Shown here: one piece after another, positions 13,796-35,440 of the stretch
Position numbering within the stretch: position 1 is the stretch's first letter
How the letters are laid out: every line of letters starts with the position of its first letter
Virus record (IMG/VR): IMGVR_UViG_3300044695_003744
Coordinates: 1-43,969 of that record
From: a virus
DNA: 43,969 bases
Reading direction: 5' to 3' (one strand)
Made by a program: the position numbers and the translations under genes
The notes under the pieces: generated by a model
The model's database searches: none
The model's input: only the letters and a program-made list of their open reading frames with translations
What the model was told of the DNA's origin: nothing

Positions 13796-14065
13796 TTAGT
13801 TGGTAAGTCCTACTTTAGCCGCTTTCACAGATGCAGAAGATGCAAAAATTACATCCGTTGATGATTTCTGGAGAAATTCAACAGTGCCATCGGGCATTGT
13901 AAATGTACTAGTAGTTGCAGCTCCAACAGAAGTTGAAATACTAACTGTTGCTGCAGCTCCAGAACCATTGTATAATCTTACGCAAGTTGCTTCACTAATA
14001 CTTGAAGCTGCACCTGCAGTTGTTGGCATTGCAACTTCTGTTGCAATTATTTTTGTTCTTTGCAT
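13796..14065 (-). CDS. Small beta-rich protein in the gp68 position
   Basis: A protein of 89 residues, rich in Ala, Ser and Thr with alternating hydrophobic residues (CVRLYNGSGAAATVSIST, then FTMPDGTVEFLQK and KAAKVGLTN). It looks like a small all-beta virion protein rather than the helical gp68 core protein that T4 has between gp67 and gp21. Its composition recalls the 105-residue protein at 35454-35771, though I see no convincing alignment. Candidate roles are head decoration or fibre cap; no family recognised. It lies between a late promoter and gp21, five bases from the gp21 start. Confidence 0.75.
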   Translation of the reverse strand: MQRTKIIATEVAMPTTAGAASSISEATCVRLYNGSGAAATVSISTSVGAATTSTFTMPDGTVEFLQKSSTDVIFASSASVKAAKVGLTN

Positions 14066-14090
14066 CGTTATAATAAAGTTCTATAATAGT

Positions 14091-14098
14091 TATTTATT
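14091..14098 (-). promoter_or_regulatory. T4-type late promoter
   Basis: AATAAATA on the minus strand, overlapping the gp67 stop codon and 26 bases before the ATG at 14065. Confidence 0.5.
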
Positions 14099-26873: not shown

Positions 26874-27668
26874 ATGATTATATTAACAGGATCACAAGGT
26901 TTCATTGGAAAAAACTTTCTTTCCACGATTAAAGAGCCTATAATAGAAGTGGAAAAGGGTAATGCTTTTCGTTTTATATCTGGGTTTAATAAATGGGATC
27001 AAGTATCCTTAATTTTGCATCAAGGAGCAATATCTTCAACGACTGAGAGAAACATTCAAACGTTACATCACAATAATGTTGTCTTTTCTTTGTTTCTTTT
27101 TGAAAAAGCAATAGAGCATGGAATATCAGTAAAATATGCTTCATCAGCATCAGTATATGGAAATCAAACAAAAAAATCAAAAGTCATAAATCCACTAAAT
27201 TATTATGCAATAACTAAACTTCAAATTGATTATTTTGTCCAAGATAATATAGAAAAATTTTCGAGTATTCAGGGATTTAGGTACTTTAATGTTTATGGGC
27301 AAGGTGAAGATCATAAAGGTGATCAAGCAAGTCCAATCTCTAAATTCACAAAACAAATTCGTGAATCAGGAAAATTGAACCTCTTCAGAGGATCAGACAA
27401 ATTTTTAAGAGACTTCATCTGTGTTGAAGATGTTGTTGATGTTGTTTTAAATAATAGCCATCCATCAGGAATCTATGATTTGGGAACAGGAAACCCTATT
27501 AGTTTTCAAGAAGTTGCAGAATTAGTCTCAGAAAAAGAAAAAGGGGAAGTCGAATATATCGACTTCCCCGAACATCTTAAAGGTAAATATCAAGATTATA
27601 CTTGTGCTGACATGAAATGGATTGGTGACTATAAGTTTAAAACAGTTAGAGAGTATCTCCTTCAATAA
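26874..27668 (+). CDS. hldD: ADP-L-glycero-D-manno-heptose 6-epimerase-like protein (HldD)
   Basis: A short-chain dehydrogenase/epimerase of 264 residues (E. coli HldD: 310). The NAD(P)-binding motif is GSQGFIG at 6-12; the catalytic set is S91 and Y111-x3-K115. HldD-specific segments are unmistakable: HQGAISSTTERN, YASSASVYGN, GFRYFNVYGQGEDHKGDQAS, LFRGSDKFLRDF, and FPEHLKGKYQDYTCADM. It would convert ADP-D-glycero- to ADP-L-glycero-manno-heptose. It is the only plus-strand gene in the window and converges on the minus-strand glycan genes, overlapping the cupin gene tail-to-tail by 23 bases. There is no obvious Shine-Dalgarno sequence. Confidence 0.93.
   Translation: MIILTGSQGFIGKNFLSTIKEPIIEVEKGNAFRFISGFNKWDQVSLILHQGAISSTTERNIQTLHHNNVVFSLFLFEKAIEHGISVKYASSASVYGNQTKKSKVINPLNYYAITKLQIDYFVQDNIEKFSSIQGFRYFNVYGQGEDHKGDQASPISKFTKQIRESGKLNLFRGSDKFLRDFICVEDVVDVVLNNSHPSGIYDLGTGNPISFQEVAELVSEKEKGEVEYIDFPEHLKGKYQDYTCADMKWIGDYKFKTVREYLLQ
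27531..27569 (-). terminator. Strong minus-strand terminator located inside hldD
   Basis: GGGGAAGTCGA (27543-27553) and TCGACTTCCCC (27559-27569) form a perfect 11-bp stem with a 5-base loop. On the minus strand it is followed by TTTTTCTTTTTC. It lies 77 bases beyond the cupin stop codon and would end the glycan-gene transcript. There is no U-tract on the plus-strand side, so hldD mRNA should read through. Confidence 0.88.
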
Positions 27669-28011
27669 TACGAATACTATCACTATCGAAATGTTGAGTT
27701 GAGAATTCAAACAACTCAGTATCTTCTAAGGCATACATTCTATGTCTTAATCCAACAGGAACATGAAAGTTTTGACCCTTTTTAAGGGTCCTTTTTTGTG
27801 CCAAATTAATGTCATCATCATACCCATAAAAAAGAATCAACATTCCAGACTGCACATAGAATGTCTCATCTTTTATGTTGTGATAATGCCAAGAACACTT
27901 TTTCCCTTTTACAAAATATAAAAGTTTTCCACAATATTGTTCATTGTTTACAATCCATTTTTCAAATCCCCATCCTTTGGGGACAAATTTAATTGAAGAA
28001 GTCATCTGCAT
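27646..28011 (-). CDS. Single-domain cupin protein of the glycan cassette
   Basis: A protein of 121 residues with cupin metal-binding signature WHYHNIKDETFYV (two His, Glu) followed by GQNFHVPVGLRHRM with a further His. Such small cupins act as sugar-phosphate isomerases or epimerases, or have structural metal sites. Similar proteins occur in phage and capsule sugar clusters. No GmhA-type sedoheptulose-7-phosphate isomerase is visible here, so an isomerase role is tempting but unproven. It overlaps the HAD gene by 23 bases. The plus-strand terminator of hldD is encoded within it (RTLKKGQ region). Confidence 0.8.
   Translation of the reverse strand: MQMTSSIKFVPKGWGFEKWIVNNEQYCGKLLYFVKGKKCSWHYHNIKDETFYVQSGMLILFYGYDDDINLAQKRTLKKGQNFHVPVGLRHRMYALEDTELFEFSTQHFDSDSIRIIEGDTL
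27774..27797 (+). terminator. Plus-strand terminator for hldD, located inside the cupin gene
   Basis: GACCCTT-TTT-AAGGGTC followed by CTTTTTTG on the plus strand. A perfect 7-bp stem plus U-tract, 106 bases after the hldD stop codon, and within the antisense coding sequence of the cupin. Confidence 0.85.
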
Positions 28012-28318
28012 TCACCGCTTTGTCATCAATGTACATATCCCCACTTGGTTTGCCCATGATTAATTCATGATACTTGCATCCCCAATCATCCAATTGTGTT
28101 TTTGTTAGATTATAAAAATCCGCATAAGCTAGATTTGAATTATCAAGATGTCTTCCCATACCACGAGCAGTAAAGTACTTGATAATATGTCCTTCCTCGT
28201 AAAGACGATTGATGGTATCAATACGGTCTAACTTTGGAATACTATTATGATAGTAACCATCTTCTCTGCAAATGGGTTTATCACAAATTGTTCCGTCGAT
28301 ATCAATTACATAATTCAT
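27989..28318 (-). CDS. Small HAD-superfamily phosphatase
   Basis: A protein of 109 residues. Motif I is DIDGTIC (D6, D8), motif II the Thr in YFTARG, and motifs III/IV are GKPSGDMYIDDKAVN. The compact fold and sequence resemble small phosphatases in capsule and LPS loci. In an ADP-heptose pathway a GmhB-type phosphatase must remove the 7-phosphate from heptose-1,7-bisphosphate. This protein could fill that step, though it is shorter than GmhB and not clearly of that family. Start overlaps the kinase stop by 17 bases. Confidence 0.85.
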   Translation of the reverse strand: MNYVIDIDGTICDKPICREDGYYHNSIPKLDRIDTINRLYEEGHIIKYFTARGMGRHLDNSNLAYADFYNLTKTQLDDWGCKYHELIMGKPSGDMYIDDKAVNADDFFN

Positions 28319-29057
28319 TCACATCTTCCTTTGATAATACGTAAGTTCCTGGATATGATACAGCAATTGCGGCCGCCCTATTAGCAATGGGTATTGCTTC
28401 CTCTATTCTACCACAATTCAAATATCCGAACACAAGGGCAGATAAGAAAGTGTCCCCAGCTCCAACAACATCATAAACATTTACTTTTTCTCCCGGATAT
28501 ACTACTCCATTGTATTCAGCACCTTTTGATCCATGAGTGATAATGACATTGGAGTTTTTTTCTTCTAACTTTTCATATTCATGTTCATTGATCTTGACAT
28601 AACAATTGTATGAAGGAAGAATCTTCTTTTTACTGTCAATAAATGTGGGACATTTCATGTTATAAACAATCTCAAATAATTTTGAACTCGTTATAAATCC
28701 CTTGTCATAATCACTAATTACGACCGCATCATATGGTTCATTTGGAATTTCATATTCCATTGGTTTACAAACAACTTCTTCGTCAACTCTAAGAATTTGT
28801 TGATTTGTCCTTTCATCAATATAACGTGTCTTAATAATTTTTTCTTGATTTGTCATCATATAAACTTCAAGACCTAATGCTTTAAGATTGTTATAGACAT
28901 TCCATGCCATCCCTTGTCTTGTTTCGGTTTTCTTGTAGTTTAAGATTGGAACAGGTGCTTCTGGATTCAATCGTTTAACTTCTCCATAAACATATTTGTC
29001 TATGCAACTATCTCCGATCAATAATACTTTGAATGATTTTTGTTGAGGAGTATTCAT
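28302..29057 (-). CDS. PfkB-family heptose-7-phosphate kinase-like protein (HldE kinase half)
   Basis: A compact ribokinase-fold protein of 251 residues, about 60 shorter than the kinase domain of HldE. The N-terminal GDSCIDKYVYGEVKRLNPEAPVPIL closely follows HldE/RfaE. RYIDERTNQQILRVDEE and VVISDYDKGF are also typical, and DVVGAGDTF carries the catalytic Asp (D202). The usual Gly-Gly-Ala-x-Asn motif is changed to RQGMAWN, and part of the lid seems deleted. It would phosphorylate D-glycero-D-manno-heptose-7-phosphate at C1. It overlaps the nucleotidyltransferase gene by 50 bases in another frame. Confidence 0.9.
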   Translation of the reverse strand: MNTPQQKSFKVLLIGDSCIDKYVYGEVKRLNPEAPVPILNYKKTETRQGMAWNVYNNLKALGLEVYMMTNQEKIIKTRYIDERTNQQILRVDEEVVCKPMEYEIPNEPYDAVVISDYDKGFITSSKLFEIVYNMKCPTFIDSKKKILPSYNCYVKINEHEYEKLEEKNSNVIITHGSKGAEYNGVVYPGEKVNVYDVVGAGDTFLSALVFGYLNCGRIEEAIPIANRAAAIAVSYPGTYVLSKEDVNELCN

Positions 29058-29409
29058 CTATTCTATCAAAAAAAATTAATCTTTTTGCAAACTGAGATCC
29101 AATTACTGGTTTATTTTTCCAATCAGAACCTACTATCATTATATCTGGATTGAACCCTTTTATCAATTCTTCCAACTCTTTATCATTAGAAAAAGTCTCA
29201 ACCTGATCTACAGGTTTTAACATATTCAAGAAAAATCTTCTTTCATCTTGATTGTGTATTGGTCTAGATGTTCCTTTCTTTTCCTTTACCCGTTCGTCGT
29301 CATCAATAGCAACTATTAAATAATCACCATAAGATTTTGCAAAATTCAAAAGTTGTAAGTGGCCTACATGAAGGACATCAAAGGTTCCATTAACAAATAT
29401 TTTTTTCAT
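29008..29409 (-). CDS. HldE-type cytidylyltransferase-fold nucleotidyltransferase (ADP-heptose synthesis)
   Basis: A protein of 133 residues with the nucleotidyltransferase motif GTFDVLHVGHLQLL (HxGH at 14-17), DDDERVKEKKGTSRP, and the C-terminal YSSTKII. This matches the C-terminal half of HldE, which transfers AMP to heptose-1-phosphate; glycerol-3-phosphate cytidylyltransferases are a related alternative. In E. coli kinase and transferase are fused in the order kinase-transferase. Here they are separate genes in the reverse order with overlapping ends. Its ATG overlaps the carbamoyltransferase stop by four bases. Confidence 0.9.
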   Translation of the reverse strand: MKKIFVNGTFDVLHVGHLQLLNFAKSYGDYLIVAIDDDERVKEKKGTSRPIHNQDERRFFLNMLKPVDQVETFSNDKELEELIKGFNPDIMIVGSDWKNKPVIGSQFAKRLIFFDRIDEYSSTKIIQSIIDRR

Positions 29410-31100
29410 TCGTTAGGAACTTTAACCAATTTTTGAATTTCGGGAAGATACATATATTCAATATCACTATTCTGAAGGGTATCAATTGCATCAACAATAG
29501 TTTCTACAAGAGGATCTCCGCCAAGATTGAATGAAGTATTGAAGAGGATGGGAACATCACTCAATTTTTCAAAAGCATCAATAAGTCTATAATAATGATC
29601 ATTCTGATCTTTTGTAACCGTTTGAATTCTACAAGTTCCATCAACGTGAATTACTGAGGGAATTTTTTCTTCAACGCCAGGTAGACAATCTACAGCATAC
29701 ATCATATGAGGAGATTCTTCTCTTCCAGCAATATCAAACCATTCATTCACTTTCTCTTTGAGAATTGTACAAGCAAATGGACGGAAGAACTCACGACGCT
29801 TAACTTGGTTTACGAGATCCTTGCCATTTTGAATGGTGGGATCAAAGAGAATTGAACGATTTCCTAGTGCTCTAGGTCCACCCTCTGAACGACCTTGGAA
29901 GATAGTAACAATATTACCATCACGAATAAGTTTTGCTACCTCGTTATAAGTTGTGGGTTGAACATCCAGTCCTTCTAAATACTCTTCATAAGTTTCTGGA
30001 TCATACTGAGGGCCATAATAAATTGAAGACTGTCTTTCAAATGGAGTTTCCATTTCAGTTATTTGTGCATGAGTATATTTTGCACCACCAATAGATGTTC
30101 CTCCATCATGGGAGATTGGTTCGCAGTAAATATTGAGATCTGGGAATTCTTTCCAATACTTGTAGTTGGCAACACAATTTAGACCATAACCACCGCAGAC
30201 AACGATATTAGTTTCACCAGTTTCTTCGTGAGCTTTACGAATGAGATCAATCATTCGGGTTTCAGTTTCCTTTTGTACTAAGAACGCTAAATCTTTTTGA
30301 ATTTGAGTGTATTCACCTTTAGAATGATTTTTTACATCTTCGGAAAGAATATCATATCTTTGGTGATTTATTTTAGACCCATTTGGATAATTGGGTACAA
30401 ATACTTCACGATTTGCCCACCCATTCCTAAAAAGTTCAGGAAGATCTTGATTTTCTTTTCCATATGGAGACAATCCCATTGTTTTTCCAGCATCTATGGA
30501 AGAAAATCCACAATACTCAGTTACCGCTTCATATGTTTTTGTTAGTCCTGGATATTCTGTGAGAATATATTTCCCATCCTCATCCAATTTAATAATACCG
30601 ATACTTTCTTTGGATCCAAAATGTTTGTAAACAGAATCGAACTCTAATGGATATTTTGCTTTAAATATAGATTCAAATTCGTAAATGACTCCTGGACAAG
30701 CATCAGTCTGTAAGAAACTTCCAGCACCATCAGCAATCACACACGCTGCAGTTTCAAATCCAGAATTTAAAAATGCACAAGCAGCGTGCATTTCATGATG
30801 TTTTGTGTCAATAAAATGAGTTTGATATTCAAATTTCTTTCTAGAAAGTTTTCTTATCCAACCATGATACAGATCTTCCCCAGTCCAATCTAGTTCAGGT
30901 CCGTTTCTATGAGTATGACATATTACTAAATGGTCAATATGGTCTACATATTCAAATACTTTTAGTAGTCCTAGAAGTGGACTTCCATCGTGTTTCCAAC
31001 GAGAAAGTCTTTCCTCTTCAACATAAAAAATTACTTCACCATCAATCATCAGAGTTGTGCTTGCATTGTGTCCGCGAGCACAGGAAACAATAATACTCAT
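29406..31100 (-). CDS. Carbamoyltransferase (NodU/CmcH/TobZ family)
   Basis: A full-length protein of 564 residues. The N-terminal Kae1-like domain has the early motif HNASTTLMIDGE, then FIDTKHHEMHAACAFLNSG (metal-binding His residues) and CVIADGAGS. The C-terminal YrdC-like domain contains IVTIFQGRSEGGPRALGNRSIL and LFNTSFNLGGDPLVE. The family transfers carbamoyl from carbamoyl phosphate, via carbamoyl-AMP, to hydroxyls on sugars or antibiotics. In this setting the acceptor is probably a sugar made by, or transferred with, the neighbouring genes. A GAGGT ribosome site lies before the ATG. Confidence 0.95.
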   Translation of the reverse strand: MSIIVSCARGHNASTTLMIDGEVIFYVEEERLSRWKHDGSPLLGLLKVFEYVDHIDHLVICHTHRNGPELDWTGEDLYHGWIRKLSRKKFEYQTHFIDTKHHEMHAACAFLNSGFETAACVIADGAGSFLQTDACPGVIYEFESIFKAKYPLEFDSVYKHFGSKESIGIIKLDEDGKYILTEYPGLTKTYEAVTEYCGFSSIDAGKTMGLSPYGKENQDLPELFRNGWANREVFVPNYPNGSKINHQRYDILSEDVKNHSKGEYTQIQKDLAFLVQKETETRMIDLIRKAHEETGETNIVVCGGYGLNCVANYKYWKEFPDLNIYCEPISHDGGTSIGGAKYTHAQITEMETPFERQSSIYYGPQYDPETYEEYLEGLDVQPTTYNEVAKLIRDGNIVTIFQGRSEGGPRALGNRSILFDPTIQNGKDLVNQVKRREFFRPFACTILKEKVNEWFDIAGREESPHMMYAVDCLPGVEEKIPSVIHVDGTCRIQTVTKDQNDHYYRLIDAFEKLSDVPILFNTSFNLGGDPLVETIVDAIDTLQNSDIEYMYLPEIQKLVKVPNE

Positions 31101-31109
31101 AATTTTACC

Positions 31110-32192
31110 TCAATTTTTAATGTCGTTTAATTCCAGAATTTGATCAATTGTTTTTTTCTTGGTTGGTTTTGGTTTTTGGAATCCAGGCATTACACTTGGA
31201 TTTATCGGAAGATTATTTTGACTTGTTCCATTTTTTGATACACCTGATAAATTCAATGTATCATTATTGACCTTACTTACGCCAATTTTATCTTTAATTG
31301 ATTTGGAAATTTCTTTTATTCTTTCATTACTTAAAATCATCAAATCTTCATTATTTCTATCATATTGATCTTCAAAACTTATTCTTATTGGGCTATATTT
31401 CCTTCTATTTTTTCCATTATCTACGATATGGAAATTTTTATTATTTGGATAGGAAATATTTTCAGGATAAGTTGAACCTATAACTACAGTACTTGGTTTG
31501 TTCAATGCATATGCAATGTGTTGACCCATGCTGTCACATCCCAGAAAATAGTCGGCAGCATTAATTATACCACCCCATTGTGTAATTGGTACATTCTGAG
31601 GACAAGCGACTCCAAGTTTATCCCAATCTGGAATTGGAATTTGTGTCATTAAGATGACGCCATAATTTTTCTTCAATTCATCAATAACTTTGTATATATC
31701 CGAAAGTTCAAAACTTCTACCTGTGACATCATAAGTAAATTTTCCTTCAACTTTTGCAGAACTGCCAAAAGGTTGAAAAACTACAATTTTATCTTTTTTT
31801 AGAACTTCTCTTACTTCTTCTACTAGATTATATCCGAATATTTGTTCTTGTTTGTTTAATTCTAAATTAATTTTTTTAGTATCTGGTATATGATTCAGTT
31901 CATTGATTAATATATCAAATGCTTGAATCAAATTACACTCTTGAGTGAAATATGCATTGAGTCTATAGGGTTCTGGACTTACAATTTCCTTATCAAGTAA
32001 AAGCGACTCAAATAAATTTTTATGATTAATAGGATAAACTTTATCCCTTAGTACTTTACTACAGGAATAAAATTCTCCCCATGATTCGGCAACGACTATA
32101 AAATCGTCATGTCTTTTGGCATATTCTTCCAAAGCGGGTATGGAACAAAGGACCCTACCCGCACCACCATTGATGAAAAATGCTTTATTCAT
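31110..32192 (-). CDS. GT9-like (heptosyltransferase-type) glycosyltransferase
   Basis: A protein of 360 residues with the two-domain GT-B pattern of family 9. It begins MNKAFFINGGAGRVLCSIPALEEY. The C-terminal donor domain contains QWGGIINAADYFLGCDSMGQHIAYALNKPSTVVIGSTYPE, the D-[ST]-x-x-x-H-x-A-x-[AS] type signature of ADP-heptose users. Residues after about 300 form a low-complexity Asn/Ser/Pro/Lys tail not typical of LPS heptosyltransferases. Together with HldD and the split HldE it makes ADP-heptose the best-supported donor. The acceptor is unknown: LPS, fibre protein or other. It starts 43 bases after a late promoter and has an AGGTGG ribosome site. Confidence 0.88.
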   Translation of the reverse strand: MNKAFFINGGAGRVLCSIPALEEYAKRHDDFIVVAESWGEFYSCSKVLRDKVYPINHKNLFESLLLDKEIVSPEPYRLNAYFTQECNLIQAFDILINELNHIPDTKKINLELNKQEQIFGYNLVEEVREVLKKDKIVVFQPFGSSAKVEGKFTYDVTGRSFELSDIYKVIDELKKNYGVILMTQIPIPDWDKLGVACPQNVPITQWGGIINAADYFLGCDSMGQHIAYALNKPSTVVIGSTYPENISYPNNKNFHIVDNGKNRRKYSPIRISFEDQYDRNNEDLMILSNERIKEISKSIKDKIGVSKVNNDTLNLSGVSKNGTSQNNLPINPSVMPGFQKPKPTKKKTIDQILELNDIKN

Positions 32193-32234
32193 TAATATTG
32201 TCCACCTTTAATAATTAAACTCGTTATACTCAGT

Positions 32235-32242
32235 TATTTATT
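32235..32242 (-). promoter_or_regulatory. T4-type late promoter for the glycan operon
   Basis: AATAAATA on the minus strand in the 79-base gap after the Cys-rich gene, 43 bases before the glycosyltransferase ATG. It would place the whole minus-strand glycan operon under gp55 control. Confidence 0.5.
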
Positions 32243-32271
32243 TTACTACTTTTGGAGTGTTTTATCAAATG

Positions 32272-33336
32272 TTATTTAAAGCAAATACAAACCAATCCCA
32301 TTTTACCAGAACAATCCCCATACATACCAACCGCACCACCAAAAGCACTTGAAGGCCAACCACCCGCACTAGGAACTCTTAATCTGCCACAACATGCTTG
32401 GTTAGCCGAACCGCAACAGATACCATCATAGAAAACTGTACACTGAGACTCGGAAAGGAATCCAAAAACTGGTGGGTGACAGTAACAAGCCGCATTATTA
32501 TTACCGCAACTGCATAGAGATGAGAACATTCCTTTTATTCCATATATCGAGCCAACAGGAGATGATCCATAATAATTTGCTCCAGGGGTGAATGGATGAA
32601 TGCAGCATACGCCAACACCAGTTGCTGACCAACATCCAAAACTACCTCCCCCACAAACAGCGTATCCACATCCTTGACTACATTTTGATCCAAAATAACA
32701 AGCAGATACAGCATATCTACCATTACATACCATCCACTTACCCAGTTCCCCAATACCACCATCTACACAGAAATTGCATAATCCCGGTCCTTGAACGAAG
32801 GATTTATCTCCGTCTGGTCTATGGCAACCATATGTACAGTATGCACAAATTCTTGGAGCACATCCACTATGGATTGTATAAGTTGCTCCAGCTGTTACAG
32901 GAATAATAAGTGATGCATATGCACCAGTTCCACCAAAAGGAGATATAGAACAACACATTCCTCCACTACCAGAACCAGATCCAGCACCCCAAATCTGGAA
33001 TCTTGCACAAGTTACTCCACTAGGAACAGTCCAAGTACAATCCTTACCCTGAGAGAAATATTGATTAACAACACCATCATCCCCACAAACAGTAAATCCA
33101 CCAGTCCATCCGGAACCAGCTGCTACACAAGACCAAAGACTTGTTTGAGCTGGATTTGCTAGTAATGAAGGTTCTATGCACCGAACCCAACAACTATATT
33201 CAGGAGTAAACAAACTTGCAGAAACCGCAAGAGCAGTAGTTTGGGGTCCTTTTACAGCTATGCAAGCGCTCTTTTCGGAAACTTGAGTAGTTAAATAGTC
33301 TTTTGCATTTTCTGCACTGTATCTTAATACATCCAT
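32272..33336 (-). CDS. Cys/Gly-rich probable tail adhesin, paralogue 1
   Basis: A protein of 354 residues with about 35 Cys (10 percent) and very high Gly and Ser. After a distinct N-terminus of about 70 residues comes a module shared with the gene at 34044-35159: GSGWT.GF.VC, CTWTVP.G.TCARFQIWGAG, SPFGG.GAYAS.I.PVTAG. A Cys/Gly-rich body follows, and both end in the same type of tail (GKMGLVCICFK). Glycine-rich bodies of this kind recall polyglycine-helix adhesins at the tips of T-even-like fibres, and similar proteins occur in cyanophages. A virion receptor-binding role is inferred; disulphides or metal sites are possible. Confidence 0.8.
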   Translation of the reverse strand: MDVLRYSAENAKDYLTTQVSEKSACIAVKGPQTTALAVSASLFTPEYSCWVRCIEPSLLANPAQTSLWSCVAAGSGWTGGFTVCGDDGVVNQYFSQGKDCTWTVPSGVTCARFQIWGAGSGSGSGGMCCSISPFGGTGAYASLIIPVTAGATYTIHSGCAPRICAYCTYGCHRPDGDKSFVQGPGLCNFCVDGGIGELGKWMVCNGRYAVSACYFGSKCSQGCGYAVCGGGSFGCWSATGVGVCCIHPFTPGANYYGSSPVGSIYGIKGMFSSLCSCGNNNAACYCHPPVFGFLSESQCTVFYDGICCGSANQACCGRLRVPSAGGWPSSAFGGAVGMYGDCSGKMGLVCICFK

Positions 33337-33342
33337 GGAATT

Positions 33343-34002
33343 TTACTGGTAATTTTTTAGAAGGTCTTGTATTTTTTCAGGAATCGGAAAAACTGATTCA
33401 AGAACATTATCAAAATTTGTATATTTCCAACTCATAAAATATGGATTTTCTTCTATATACTTATCTATATCTTTTACGACTTCTGAAATTTGATCTAATA
33501 AGTCTAAAGAAACATCTTGGTCTTCACCTTTTTCTTTTTTTCCTTCTTCATTACTTAAAATAAAACCCAATCTATTACGAATAGCAGTTAAATTCAAAGT
33601 CACATAATTATCAAGATTATTTTTTGCAATCACATTTAATTTAATTGATTTTAATTCTGAGTCATAAACAGCGTCATAACAATCCAGTAAAGTTGGATTT
33701 TTTATTTTTTGATAAATATCTCCATTTTCCATAATCTCCTCTTCATATTCATATTCATGATTTTCTAAAAGATTTGTCAAATAATAACAAATTTCTGGTT
33801 GTTGTTCAGCATTAATTTTGATTAAACTGCAAGAATCAACATCGTAATGTTCTGGATTAATGCCATTAATAATGCCAGTAGGGGTGTGAACCAATACATT
33901 TATGTATTTTGGTCCATCATAAGTTAAAGAAATTTCTTTCCCTTCATCAAAAGAATTGATATAAAGTTCATCTGGCATTGGATAGGAAAATGTTTTTATC
34001 AT
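33343..34002 (-). CDS. Unknown protein between the two Cys-rich paralogues
   Basis: A protein of 219 residues that I do not recognise. It begins MIKTFSYPMPDELYINSFDEGKEISLTYDG and is rich in Tyr, Asn and Glu. It has a mixed alpha/beta look, a charged loop (EEGKKEKGEDQ) near residue 155 and the C-terminal segment YFMSWKYTNFDNVLESVF. Its position between two fibre-like paralogues would suit a fibre assembly chaperone or a connecting virion protein; neither can be shown from sequence. It has its own late promoter and ends six bases before the downstream Cys-rich gene. Confidence 0.75.
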   Translation of the reverse strand: MIKTFSYPMPDELYINSFDEGKEISLTYDGPKYINVLVHTPTGIINGINPEHYDVDSCSLIKINAEQQPEICYYLTNLLENHEYEYEEEIMENGDIYQKIKNPTLLDCYDAVYDSELKSIKLNVIAKNNLDNYVTLNLTAIRNRLGFILSNEEGKKEKGEDQDVSLDLLDQISEVVKDIDKYIEENPYFMSWKYTNFDNVLESVFPIPEKIQDLLKNYQ

Positions 34003-34023
34003 GACTCAATAAAAATTTTTAGT

Positions 34024-34031
34024 TATTTATT
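34024..34031 (-). promoter_or_regulatory. T4-type late promoter
   Basis: AATAAATA on the minus strand, 21 bases before the ATG at 34002. Confidence 0.5.
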
Positions 34032-34043
34032 AAAAGAAACCGA

Positions 34044-35159
34044 TTATTTAAAGCAAACACAAACCATTCCCATTCTACCGGCATCACCACAAATCGATAA
34101 ACAACCACCAGCAACTTGCATCGCAAAACCACCAGAACCAGGAAGTAAAAGAGATGCAAGTACTGCACCAAAAGTAGCGCTAGCCGAACAGTAGTTTCCA
34201 CCACAACTGGTGGAACTACTGAGAGAAAATACGCACTGTGAAGATGATTCGAATCCATAAATTGGTGGATTTTTGTGATACCCACATTTACAGTAGTGGG
34301 CCATACAACTCTCTCCATATGCACCAGCAATACCATAAACAGTTCCACCTGTAGCTGAACCATAAGATAATGCTGAAGAATGGTACGCAGGAAGCATCAT
34401 GTGGGGATTACTTGAAAATCCACTTCCACAACACTGGATAGTAGGAACTGCTTCATTGAATGGAGTACTAATCGTTGTAGAACAGAAACTAGATCCAGTA
34501 CCACAAATGCAATATCCAAGAAATGACTGACAAGTATATGCAGGTCTAGCGTCTATAATACCAGTTTTATAATAATAAACATCTCTATCAATCATTTGTT
34601 GACAAAGATTTCCTATTCCACCCATGGCACAGAAGTTTGTTAGTCCAGGCCCAGTGATATAAGAAGCACAACCATTTCCATTACTTATACAGTTCCAACA
34701 TCCATAACAACATAGAGCGCAACCAGCACAAAGAATATATTGACATCCAGCAGTTACAGGCATAATAACTGATGCATAAGCTCCACTTCCACCAAAAGGT
34801 GATCCTCCACAACAACCAGCAGCACCAGAAGAACCACCAGCACCCCAAATCTGGAATCTTGCACAAGTTGCCCCACCAGGCACTGTCCATGTACAAGTAG
34901 CTCCACATCTAAAAAATCCAGAAGTATCGCAAACTTTAAATCCAGAAGTCCATCCAGAACCAGTCTCTACACAAGCCCACAGTTCTGGTCTAGGAATTTT
35001 ACCATTAATAATACTAGGAGCATTAGTATTAACAGTGGACAAATAAGTGCTACAATTACTATTTAAAGTAGAAATACATGATGTTAAGGTATTATTGCAA
35101 GTCCTTAAAGGTTGATTTTGTTTATTTAAGGAGTTGTATGCTAAAACGTCTATTGTCAT
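34044..35159 (-). CDS. Cys/Gly-rich probable tail adhesin, paralogue 2
   Basis: A protein of 371 residues with about 36 Cys. It shares the central module and the terminal tail (GRMGMVCVCFK) with the gene at 32272-33336, with long runs of near-identical DNA over the TCARFQIWGAG part. The N-terminal 60 residues are different (polar, Asn/Thr/Ser-rich with spaced Cys), perhaps an attachment region. The middle is divergent, as expected for host-range variation. It follows the small YD-repeat-like protein by five bases and belongs to the transcript starting at the late promoter at 35799-35806. Confidence 0.8.
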   Translation of the reverse strand: MTIDVLAYNSLNKQNQPLRTCNNTLTSCISTLNSNCSTYLSTVNTNAPSIINGKIPRPELWACVETGSGWTSGFKVCDTSGFFRCGATCTWTVPGGATCARFQIWGAGGSSGAAGCCGGSPFGGSGAYASVIMPVTAGCQYILCAGCALCCYGCWNCISNGNGCASYITGPGLTNFCAMGGIGNLCQQMIDRDVYYYKTGIIDARPAYTCQSFLGYCICGTGSSFCSTTISTPFNEAVPTIQCCGSGFSSNPHMMLPAYHSSALSYGSATGGTVYGIAGAYGESCMAHYCKCGYHKNPPIYGFESSSQCVFSLSSSTSCGGNYCSASATFGAVLASLLLPGSGGFAMQVAGGCLSICGDAGRMGMVCVCFK

Positions 35160-35164
35160 TTTTA

Positions 35165-35440
35165 TTATGCCCTCGTTATAGAAGTTACATTTCCGGTGCC
35201 GGAGTCATAAGTTATAGTAACTGTATAACTAGATGATCCTATAGTTTCGATGTATCCCGTAATTTTATTTTCAGAATCATAAGTAATACTACTCAACCTC
35301 TTATCACCATAAGTTACAGAAGTCACTCTTCCTAGGCCATCTTCAACTAAGTCAGAACTCCTAGTAAAAGGTCTTGTTCTAAAATTATAAGCCTCTTCAT
35401 CAGGATTTCTAGATGGAATGTTTCCAATATACCTAGCCAT
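35165..35440 (-). CDS. Small beta-rich protein with YD-repeat-like motifs
   Basis: A protein of 91 residues. The N-terminus, MARYIGNIPSRNPDEEAYNFRTRPF, resembles the starts of phage virion proteins. The rest holds short repeats, GRVTSVTYGD, LSSITYDSENKITGY and VTITYDSGTGNVTSIT, similar in pattern to YD/RHS beta repeats. A strong GGAGG ribosome site lies nine bases before the ATG, suggesting high expression. It is likely a structural or fibre-associated protein; the exact role is unknown. Confidence 0.8.
   Translation of the reverse strand: MARYIGNIPSRNPDEEAYNFRTRPFTRSSDLVEDGLGRVTSVTYGDKRLSSITYDSENKITGYIETIGSSSYTVTITYDSGTGNVTSITRA

Follow-up and report, generated by a model that had tools for sequence, protein, structure and literature searches.

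A predicted viral module pairing a GT9-fold glycosyltransferase with cysteine-rich tail adhesins

Introduction

The glycocin S-glycosyltransferases SunS and ThuS attach S-linked sugars to cysteine (Cys) residues of a specific partner protein whose gene is adjacent to their own. A similar arrangement is predicted here for a virus record from IMG/VR, 43,969 bases long (IMGVR_UViG_3300044695_003744; analysed over its full length and referred to as the window), in which the gene of a glycosyltransferase with the GT9 fold is located beside the genes of two Cys-rich adhesins. SunS and ThuS, however, represent a different glycosyltransferase family and modify one or two Cys residues of a bacteriocin, versus the dozens predicted on an adhesin. 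The closest isolates to the window are Prochlorococcus phages P-SSM2 and P-SSM5, which indicates that the virus likely has a cyanobacterial host.

The closest working analogues are the autotransporter heptosyltransferases TibC and Aah (PMC4358343), which combine the GT9 fold with a gene position beside the adhesin served (as is presumed for the phage enzyme) and with dense modification of this adhesin (predicted here). TibC and Aah contain an N-terminal beta-barrel, a four-Cys iron finger and a catalytic Asp, all of which are absent from the phage enzyme. The latter is also distinguished by being phage-encoded, by its Cys-rich adhesins, which are not enriched in Ser, and by its own sugar genes and carbamoyltransferase. 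It may therefore work like these enzymes without being one of them; of the likeness drawn in a previous annotation of the window, made by a model from the sequence alone (the original prediction), the shared fold stands, but the likeness does not extend to the three features listed above.

Modification of virion proteins by phage glycosyltransferases has been proposed, for instance, in mycobacteriophages, where it was inferred from two glycosyltransferase genes (PMC11256854); the substrate proposed there is the capsid, and neither Cys-rich adhesins nor ADP-heptose genes form part of that proposal. In a cyanophage comparison of 2010, genes of the type described below, seven of which co-occur in three phages, were called lipopolysaccharide (LPS) clusters, either functional or "stuffer DNA" (PMC3037559). 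Protein S-glycosylation is considered rare (PMC11242366), and no description of Cys-rich cyanophage fibres or of viral or phage S-glycosylation was found in the open-access literature.

Results and Discussion

Conservation of the pairing

Relatives of the window enzyme were gathered from public viral contigs, genomes and named phages, blind to Cys content. They were clustered at 80% identity, and the 100 members with at least 3 kb of upstream sequence were counted. A protein was classified as Cys-rich when it contained at least 10 Cys residues in 150 aa, and was scored if encoded on the same strand, up to 5 kb upstream or directly downstream of the GT9 gene. This analysis revealed a Cys-rich protein in the loci of 98 of the 100 members, some of which share ancestry that the clustering reduces but does not remove. 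In 95 cases the two genes are arranged in this way, and in three (L253, L291 and L292) the two genes are convergent, on opposite strands. These three were recognized during individual inspection of the five initial misses, the other two being both located in L096. Locus L123, also considered as an exception, was rejected as such, since its Cys-rich domain is fused to a fibre. The median distance between the paired genes is 823 bp.

The reverse test, starting from loci selected for Cys, identified a GT9 gene in all 83 assessable loci (the remaining 16 contigs end too early). As a background, only one of 478 open reading frames (ORFs; at least 150 aa) in T4 neck-gene loci was Cys-rich; this sample serves as background only, as it includes just two GT9 loci, both ending at the adhesin side. 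Taken together, these three counts rule out chance or local coincidence. Among named phages, the set retrieved with cyanophage Cys-rich proteins coincides with the set carrying GT9. Isolates with the module include P-SSM2, S-CAM1, S-SSM7 and Vibrio phage SBP1. One record matched by a Cys-rich query, MH319732, is an assembly fragment, and the GT9 gene is present on the other contig of this assembly. Searches of the viral contigs with the GT9 proteins of schitoviruses and of an Aeromonas phage yielded no relatives.

The adjacency noticed in the window is thus strongly conserved in other genomes, and the observation named at the outset as a refutation, namely that either gene is often found alone, was made in neither direction. 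Dedicated virion glycosylation, originally proposed from proximity, is supported as a genomic inference: it is highly probable that the adhesins are glycosylated by the GT9-fold enzyme.

Two variants of the locus deserve mention. The phages of loci L025-L033 contain two GT9 genes flanking a carbamoyltransferase gene and three genes for Cys-rich proteins. Locus L158 (JAHFPP010000006.1, 4040-8672) originates from a Candidatus Woesearchaeota metagenome-assembled genome (MAG) contig, which also contains enolase-like and endonuclease-III-like genes. It encodes a Gly-rich protein of 593 aa that contains 52 Cys and whose N-terminus is possibly signal-like; GT9 and a carbamoyltransferase come next. 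The locus is possibly a cellular version of the pair.

Cys content and the presence of the enzyme

The Cys-rich partner ORFs fall into 12 sequence-similarity groups, several plainly unrelated and some consisting of single or spurious ORFs. They include (i) a Gly-rich family, (ii) a low-Gly family of 572-911 aa (e.g. in L061), (iii) a family of 289-310 aa and (iv) a family of 228-300 aa. The near-obligatory pairing therefore extends across unrelated adhesins.

A direct comparison of related proteins is offered by the schitoviruses. In the Vibrio schitoviruses D505, K479 and SBP1, GT9 is located 8-9 bp upstream of the gene for a coiled tail protein with 39-41 Cys, and no carbamoyltransferase or heptose genes were detected in the flank examined. 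In schitoviruses 1.224.A and PG11, both absent from the GT9 matches, the homologues of this tail protein contain only 7 and 4 Cys, respectively. The aligned N-terminal region of the D505 protein has 14 Cys, of which 11 are also Cys in the GT9-positive SBP1 (52% overall identity between the two tail proteins) and none in 1.224.A or PG11. A comparable case is the fibre of cyanophage Pam3 (gp24; PMC9608196; PF21722, Gly_rich_2), which has the same receptor-binding, Gly-rich fold as adhesin A of the window but a single Cys in 280 residues; reading 49 kb of the 54.5-kb Pam3 genome revealed no GT9 gene, and Pam3 is absent from the GT9 tblastn matches. A tblastn search from L102 for Gly-rich, low-Cys homologues retrieved only S-CAM1, itself GT9-positive. 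Judging from these comparisons, Cys content tracks the enzyme and not the fold, which is our strongest argument.

The GT9-fold enzyme

The GT9 gene (31110..32192, minus strand) encodes a 360-aa protein, a predicted adhesin heptosyltransferase. Its PF01075 (GT9) score of 19.5 bits is under the cut-off of 22, and 10 of 13 relatives match this profile at E≤0.1. An AlphaFold2 model (pLDDT, the predicted local distance difference test score, of 90), built on a 50-sequence alignment, matched Veillonella GT9 (3tov; Z 22.4), WaaF (Z 20.4), TibC (Z 19.3) and WaaC (Z 18.9), with the next non-GT9 fold at Z 11.8. The assignment made in the original prediction is thus right at the level of the fold: the predicted structure settles that the enzyme belongs to GT9. 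Residue 1 of the model aligns with residue 97 of TibC, hence the lack of a beta-barrel.

The enzyme shares with WaaC, WaaF and WaaQ the fold and the nucleotide-side D-S/T-x-x-x-H motif. It differs from them in its low identity (14-15% to WaaC and WaaF in the structural alignment), in its linkage to tail adhesins instead of LPS genes, and at the position of the catalytic base. The loop that carries the catalytic Asp (GD) in WaaC, WaaF, WaaQ and WaaU of Escherichia coli reads GR in the window enzyme (Arg13), and the sequence GGxGR is present in all 178 distinct phage enzymes compared. Glu74 is also invariant. C86 and C219 are the only conserved Cys residues of the family, against the four of the iron finger in the autotransporter enzymes.

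For TibC, the corresponding Asp has been proposed to act as the base in the activation of the Ser acceptor, and variants without it are inactive or much less active (PMC4358343). The Se-glycosyltransferase SenB apparently needs no catalytic base, and spontaneous deprotonation was proposed (PMC10891094). The Asp-to-Arg change might suit a Cys acceptor, because a thiol needs less activation than a hydroxyl group; it is consistent with such an acceptor but does not prove it, as another base could have evolved.

Some of the GT9 enzymes (L123, L102 and L062) end in a Cys pair (NTCCNQ, NPCCK and SCCSK, respectively), and are perhaps self-modified or use these residues in substrate binding. A search with E. 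coli WaaF for phage GT9 enzymes of the Asp type matched mostly host DNA in phage records. Two of these, of Campylobacter phages A18a and A11a (MG065686.1 and MG065691.1), contain waaF sequences 100% and approximately 85% identical to that of E. coli K-12, which suggests contamination by host DNA or mis-assembly.

Predicted fold and composition of the adhesins

Adhesin A (34044..35159, minus strand; 371 aa) and adhesin B (32272..33336, minus strand; 354 aa) are Gly-rich proteins with 36 and 35 Cys (9.7% and 9.9%), respectively, versus 0-2.8% in the remaining proteins of the region, and are the predicted acceptors. Both belong to phrog_35878 and share 40% identity, which identifies them as paralogues. 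The model of adhesin A (pLDDT 78.5) consists of an N-terminal helix and a distal domain; residues 68-371 match the receptor-binding fibre of Pam3 (Z 13.4), and the distal domain also matches the Bxb1 tail tip (Z 11.9). The window adhesins do not match PF21722, and a search of their profile against the sequences of solved structures gave no match; two relatives, in L057 (24.9 bits, cut-off 24.3) and L102 (44 bits), score above the PF21722 cut-off. In view of the structural matches and of these relatives, "adhesin" seems a fair name.

The description of the adhesins as Ser/Gly-rich bodies with about 10 percent Cys holds for Gly (14-16%) and Cys, but not for Ser. Cys accounts for 9.2% of the residues in the Cys-rich set, as opposed to 0.6% in the Gly-containing proteins outside this set from the same loci (about 15-fold), while Ser (8.3 vs 8.7%) and Thr (7.5 vs 11.0%) are not enriched; as the set was selected by Cys, the informative point is the missing Ser/Thr signal. 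Cys is the most conserved residue (91%, in 129 non-overlapping pairs). Its changes are often single, with mostly polar replacements (N, T, Y, A, Q and others), and its totals are even in 182 proteins and odd in 182; these parity and single-gain counts, drawn from related proteins, are descriptive. The run CC is 1.7 times and the run CCC 3.8 times more frequent than expected. This pattern is easier to reconcile with numerous exposed thiols, each used individually, than with fixed pairs.

These data bear on the linkage of the sugar, for which both O- and S-glycosylation sites had been envisaged. The enzyme could O-glycosylate Ser/Thr of the adhesins in the manner of the autotransporter system, with the Cys residues separately forming disulfides that stabilize the exposed tips. 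Such a scheme would be in line with the fold shared with TibC, which heptosylates adhesin Ser (PMC4358343), and with the conservation of Cys expected of disulfides. It does not account, however, for the association of Cys-richness with the enzyme in partners of unrelated fold, and it is at variance with the lack of Ser/Thr enrichment, with the equal frequency of even and odd Cys totals and the single Cys changes, and with the Arg at the position of the Asp used for hydroxyl acceptors. We consider O-linkage unlikely; the signal lies in Cys, and S-linkage is the better supported of the two.

Sugar supply and proposed pathway

The genes downstream of GT9 resemble those of ADP-heptose synthesis, and thereby lend support to the original guess of a heptose donor. 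The best matches of the window sugar genes were rfaE_dom_I, rfaE_dom_II and heptose_epim, each with a score below the curated cut-off. The cassette contains putative genes for (i) an HldE C-terminal-like heptose-1-phosphate adenylyltransferase (29008..29409, minus strand; top match TIGR02199, 109 bits), (ii) a short version of an HldE N-terminal-like heptose-7-phosphate kinase (28302..29057, minus strand; top match TIGR02198, 142 bits), (iii) a small HAD-type phosphatase, a candidate for the GmhB step (27989..28318, minus strand; TIGR01689 capsule phosphatase, 3e-7; phrog_1238), (iv) a cupin (27646..28011, minus strand; PF07883, 3e-7; weak matches to D-lyxose isomerase, 0.019, and to the WbuC cupin), which may be a sugar-phosphate isomerase replacing GmhA, and (v) an HldD-like ADP-heptose 6-epimerase (26874..27668, plus strand; TIGR02197, top match by far, 217 bits, cut-off 274.6). 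An ADP-heptose route is thus likely encoded by the cassette. GT9 is directly followed by the gene of a NodU/CmcH-type O-carbamoyltransferase of 564 aa (29406..31100, minus strand; PF16861, 9e-59; PF02543, 5e-22), predicted to carbamoylate the sugar and present in 81 of 84 GT9 clusters. The database names "phosphoheptose isomerase" (for HAD) and "cysteine dioxygenase" (for cupin) given to such phage families look like misannotations.

According to the proposed pathway, the phage kinase, adenylyltransferase, phosphatase and epimerase would make an activated heptose (ADP-heptose), which the GT9-fold enzyme would transfer to the products of the neighbouring upstream genes, the Cys-rich receptor-binding proteins, with their Cys thiols as the most likely sites, resulting in S-linked heptose. 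The carbamoyltransferase would carbamoylate the sugar after or before transfer, and the tips formed by the adhesins would carry a dense sugar coat on leaving the cell. From the genomic data we infer the adhesins as the target of the sugar, heptose as its identity and Cys as the acceptor; the complete reading, with S-linked heptose on Cys, appears somewhat more probable than its negation.

Several observations weigh against it. In L096, the sole locus of its kind, 12.9 kb of sequence contain two GT9 genes but none for a Cys-rich protein. Another residue of the enzyme, e.g. the invariant Glu74, could act as a base. The 91% conservation of Cys also fits disulfides, metal binding or a structural role, and no clear acceptor motif was found around Cys, where only Pro is avoided. 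There was no match to GmhA among the cassette proteins, and approximately half of the GT9 clusters lack heptose-synthesis genes in the flank examined, so the sugar may vary.

The cassette could instead alter the host envelope, through carbamoylation and the heptose of the LPS core, and thereby exclude superinfection or mask receptors, the proximity of the adhesins being a coincidence of the tail module. This is close to the published interpretation as an LPS cluster or stuffer DNA (PMC3037559), in which the genes were named LPS genes, and every enzyme of the cassette does resemble an LPS-core enzyme. Against it, Cys-rich tail proteins co-occur with GT9 in 98% of the clusters, including phages in which no other sugar gene was seen alongside. 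Furthermore, cyanobacterial LPS generally lacks heptose, as reported for marine Synechococcus WH8102 (PMC4515613), the host of the module-bearing phage Sf-FS3. A phage needing ADP-heptose in such a host must therefore bring its own pathway, as these phages do, which speaks against simple LPS supplementation. An envelope function is in our view quite improbable, and "LPS genes or stuffer DNA" fits the evidence poorly.

Vibrio and Aeromonas are the hosts of the phages that carry only the enzyme; as Gram-negative bacteria, they are expected to synthesize ADP-heptose for LPS formation. It is also conceivable that the glycosyltransferase makes another Cys modification or uses a sugar other than heptose, as could be argued from the clusters without HldE/HldD-like genes and from the similarity to WaaC/WaaF, which is limited to the fold; the nearly complete ADP-heptose set in the cluster of the window itself makes this decidedly doubtful. 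Finally, that GT9 and the adhesins merely travel together as one mobile host-range cassette without mutual action, as their location in the variable region that separates the tail fibre from the neck genes and their sporadic occurrence in T4-like phages might suggest (in 77 of 80 neck-gene loci, neither was seen in the flank examined), is very improbable, since linkage accounts neither for one enzyme family with unrelated Cys-rich partners, nor for the gain of Cys in otherwise homologous schitovirus tail proteins, nor for pairs kept on opposite strands (L253, L291 and L292).

In the cassettes of S-SSM7 (L057) and Sf-FS3 (L059), the stretch from adhesins to neck genes contains several 2-oxoglutarate-Fe(II) oxygenase genes, one of them directly between the adhesins and GT9, as well as a second carbamoyltransferase gene and, in S-SSM7, a tryptophan halogenase gene; the products perhaps further modify the same proteins.

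Organization of the locus and promoter-like motifs

The order of genes on the minus strand is: a 1947-aa tail fibre, two small proteins, adhesin A, a 219-aa protein, adhesin B and GT9. These are followed by the carbamoyltransferase gene and the closely packed genes for the adenylyltransferase, PfkB kinase, phosphatase and cupin, which are faced by the plus-strand epimerase gene, with T4-type neck genes beyond. All the coordinates given previously hold, including the gap of exactly 79 bases between adhesin B and GT9. The 219-aa protein (33343..34002, minus strand; phrog_9740, weak) is, from its position, a possible fibre-assembly chaperone; recognizable relatives occur in 24 of 84 GT9 clusters, and similarity to the Pam3 chaperone gp25 was not detectable. 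A 91-aa protein encoded upstream of adhesin A (35165-35440, minus strand) shows a weak RHS-repeat match (PF05593), below the cut-off.

The late-promoter-like motif AATAAATAACT occurs in three exact copies in the window versus 0.09 expected, an expectation that is lenient, as the motif was derived from the same region. One copy (32232..32242, minus strand) lies 39 bp ahead of the GT9 start and another (34021-34031) 18 bp ahead of the gene for the 219-aa protein. The third (14088-14098, minus strand) precedes the gene of an 89-aa Ser/Ala-rich protein (13796-14065). With one mismatch allowed, the count is at chance level. A late promoter of its own for GT9, as originally proposed, is plausible from the exact copies.

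Implications

The chances appear evenly balanced that viral protein S-glycosylation is widespread, with Asp-less, GT9-derived enzymes heptosylating dozens of Cys on unrelated receptor-binding proteins whose Cys-rich surfaces evolved as acceptors, and with the archaeal MAG contig of L158 perhaps carrying a cellular version. With the Arg in place of the Asp and the Cys-rich partner, the proposal can be tested directly.

If true, this would be a protein decoration of a kind not yet described in viruses, and the enzymes would be new tools for dense thiol glycosylation. It would explain the clusters that the comparison of 2010 interpreted as "LPS genes or stuffer DNA" and give a function to the unnamed PHROG families 8954, 35878 and 4205. 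It would also mean that, in a common group of aquatic phages, the host-binding tips consist of Cys-rich proteins with a coat of carbamoylated heptose, which would change the modelling of phage-host recognition in the ocean.

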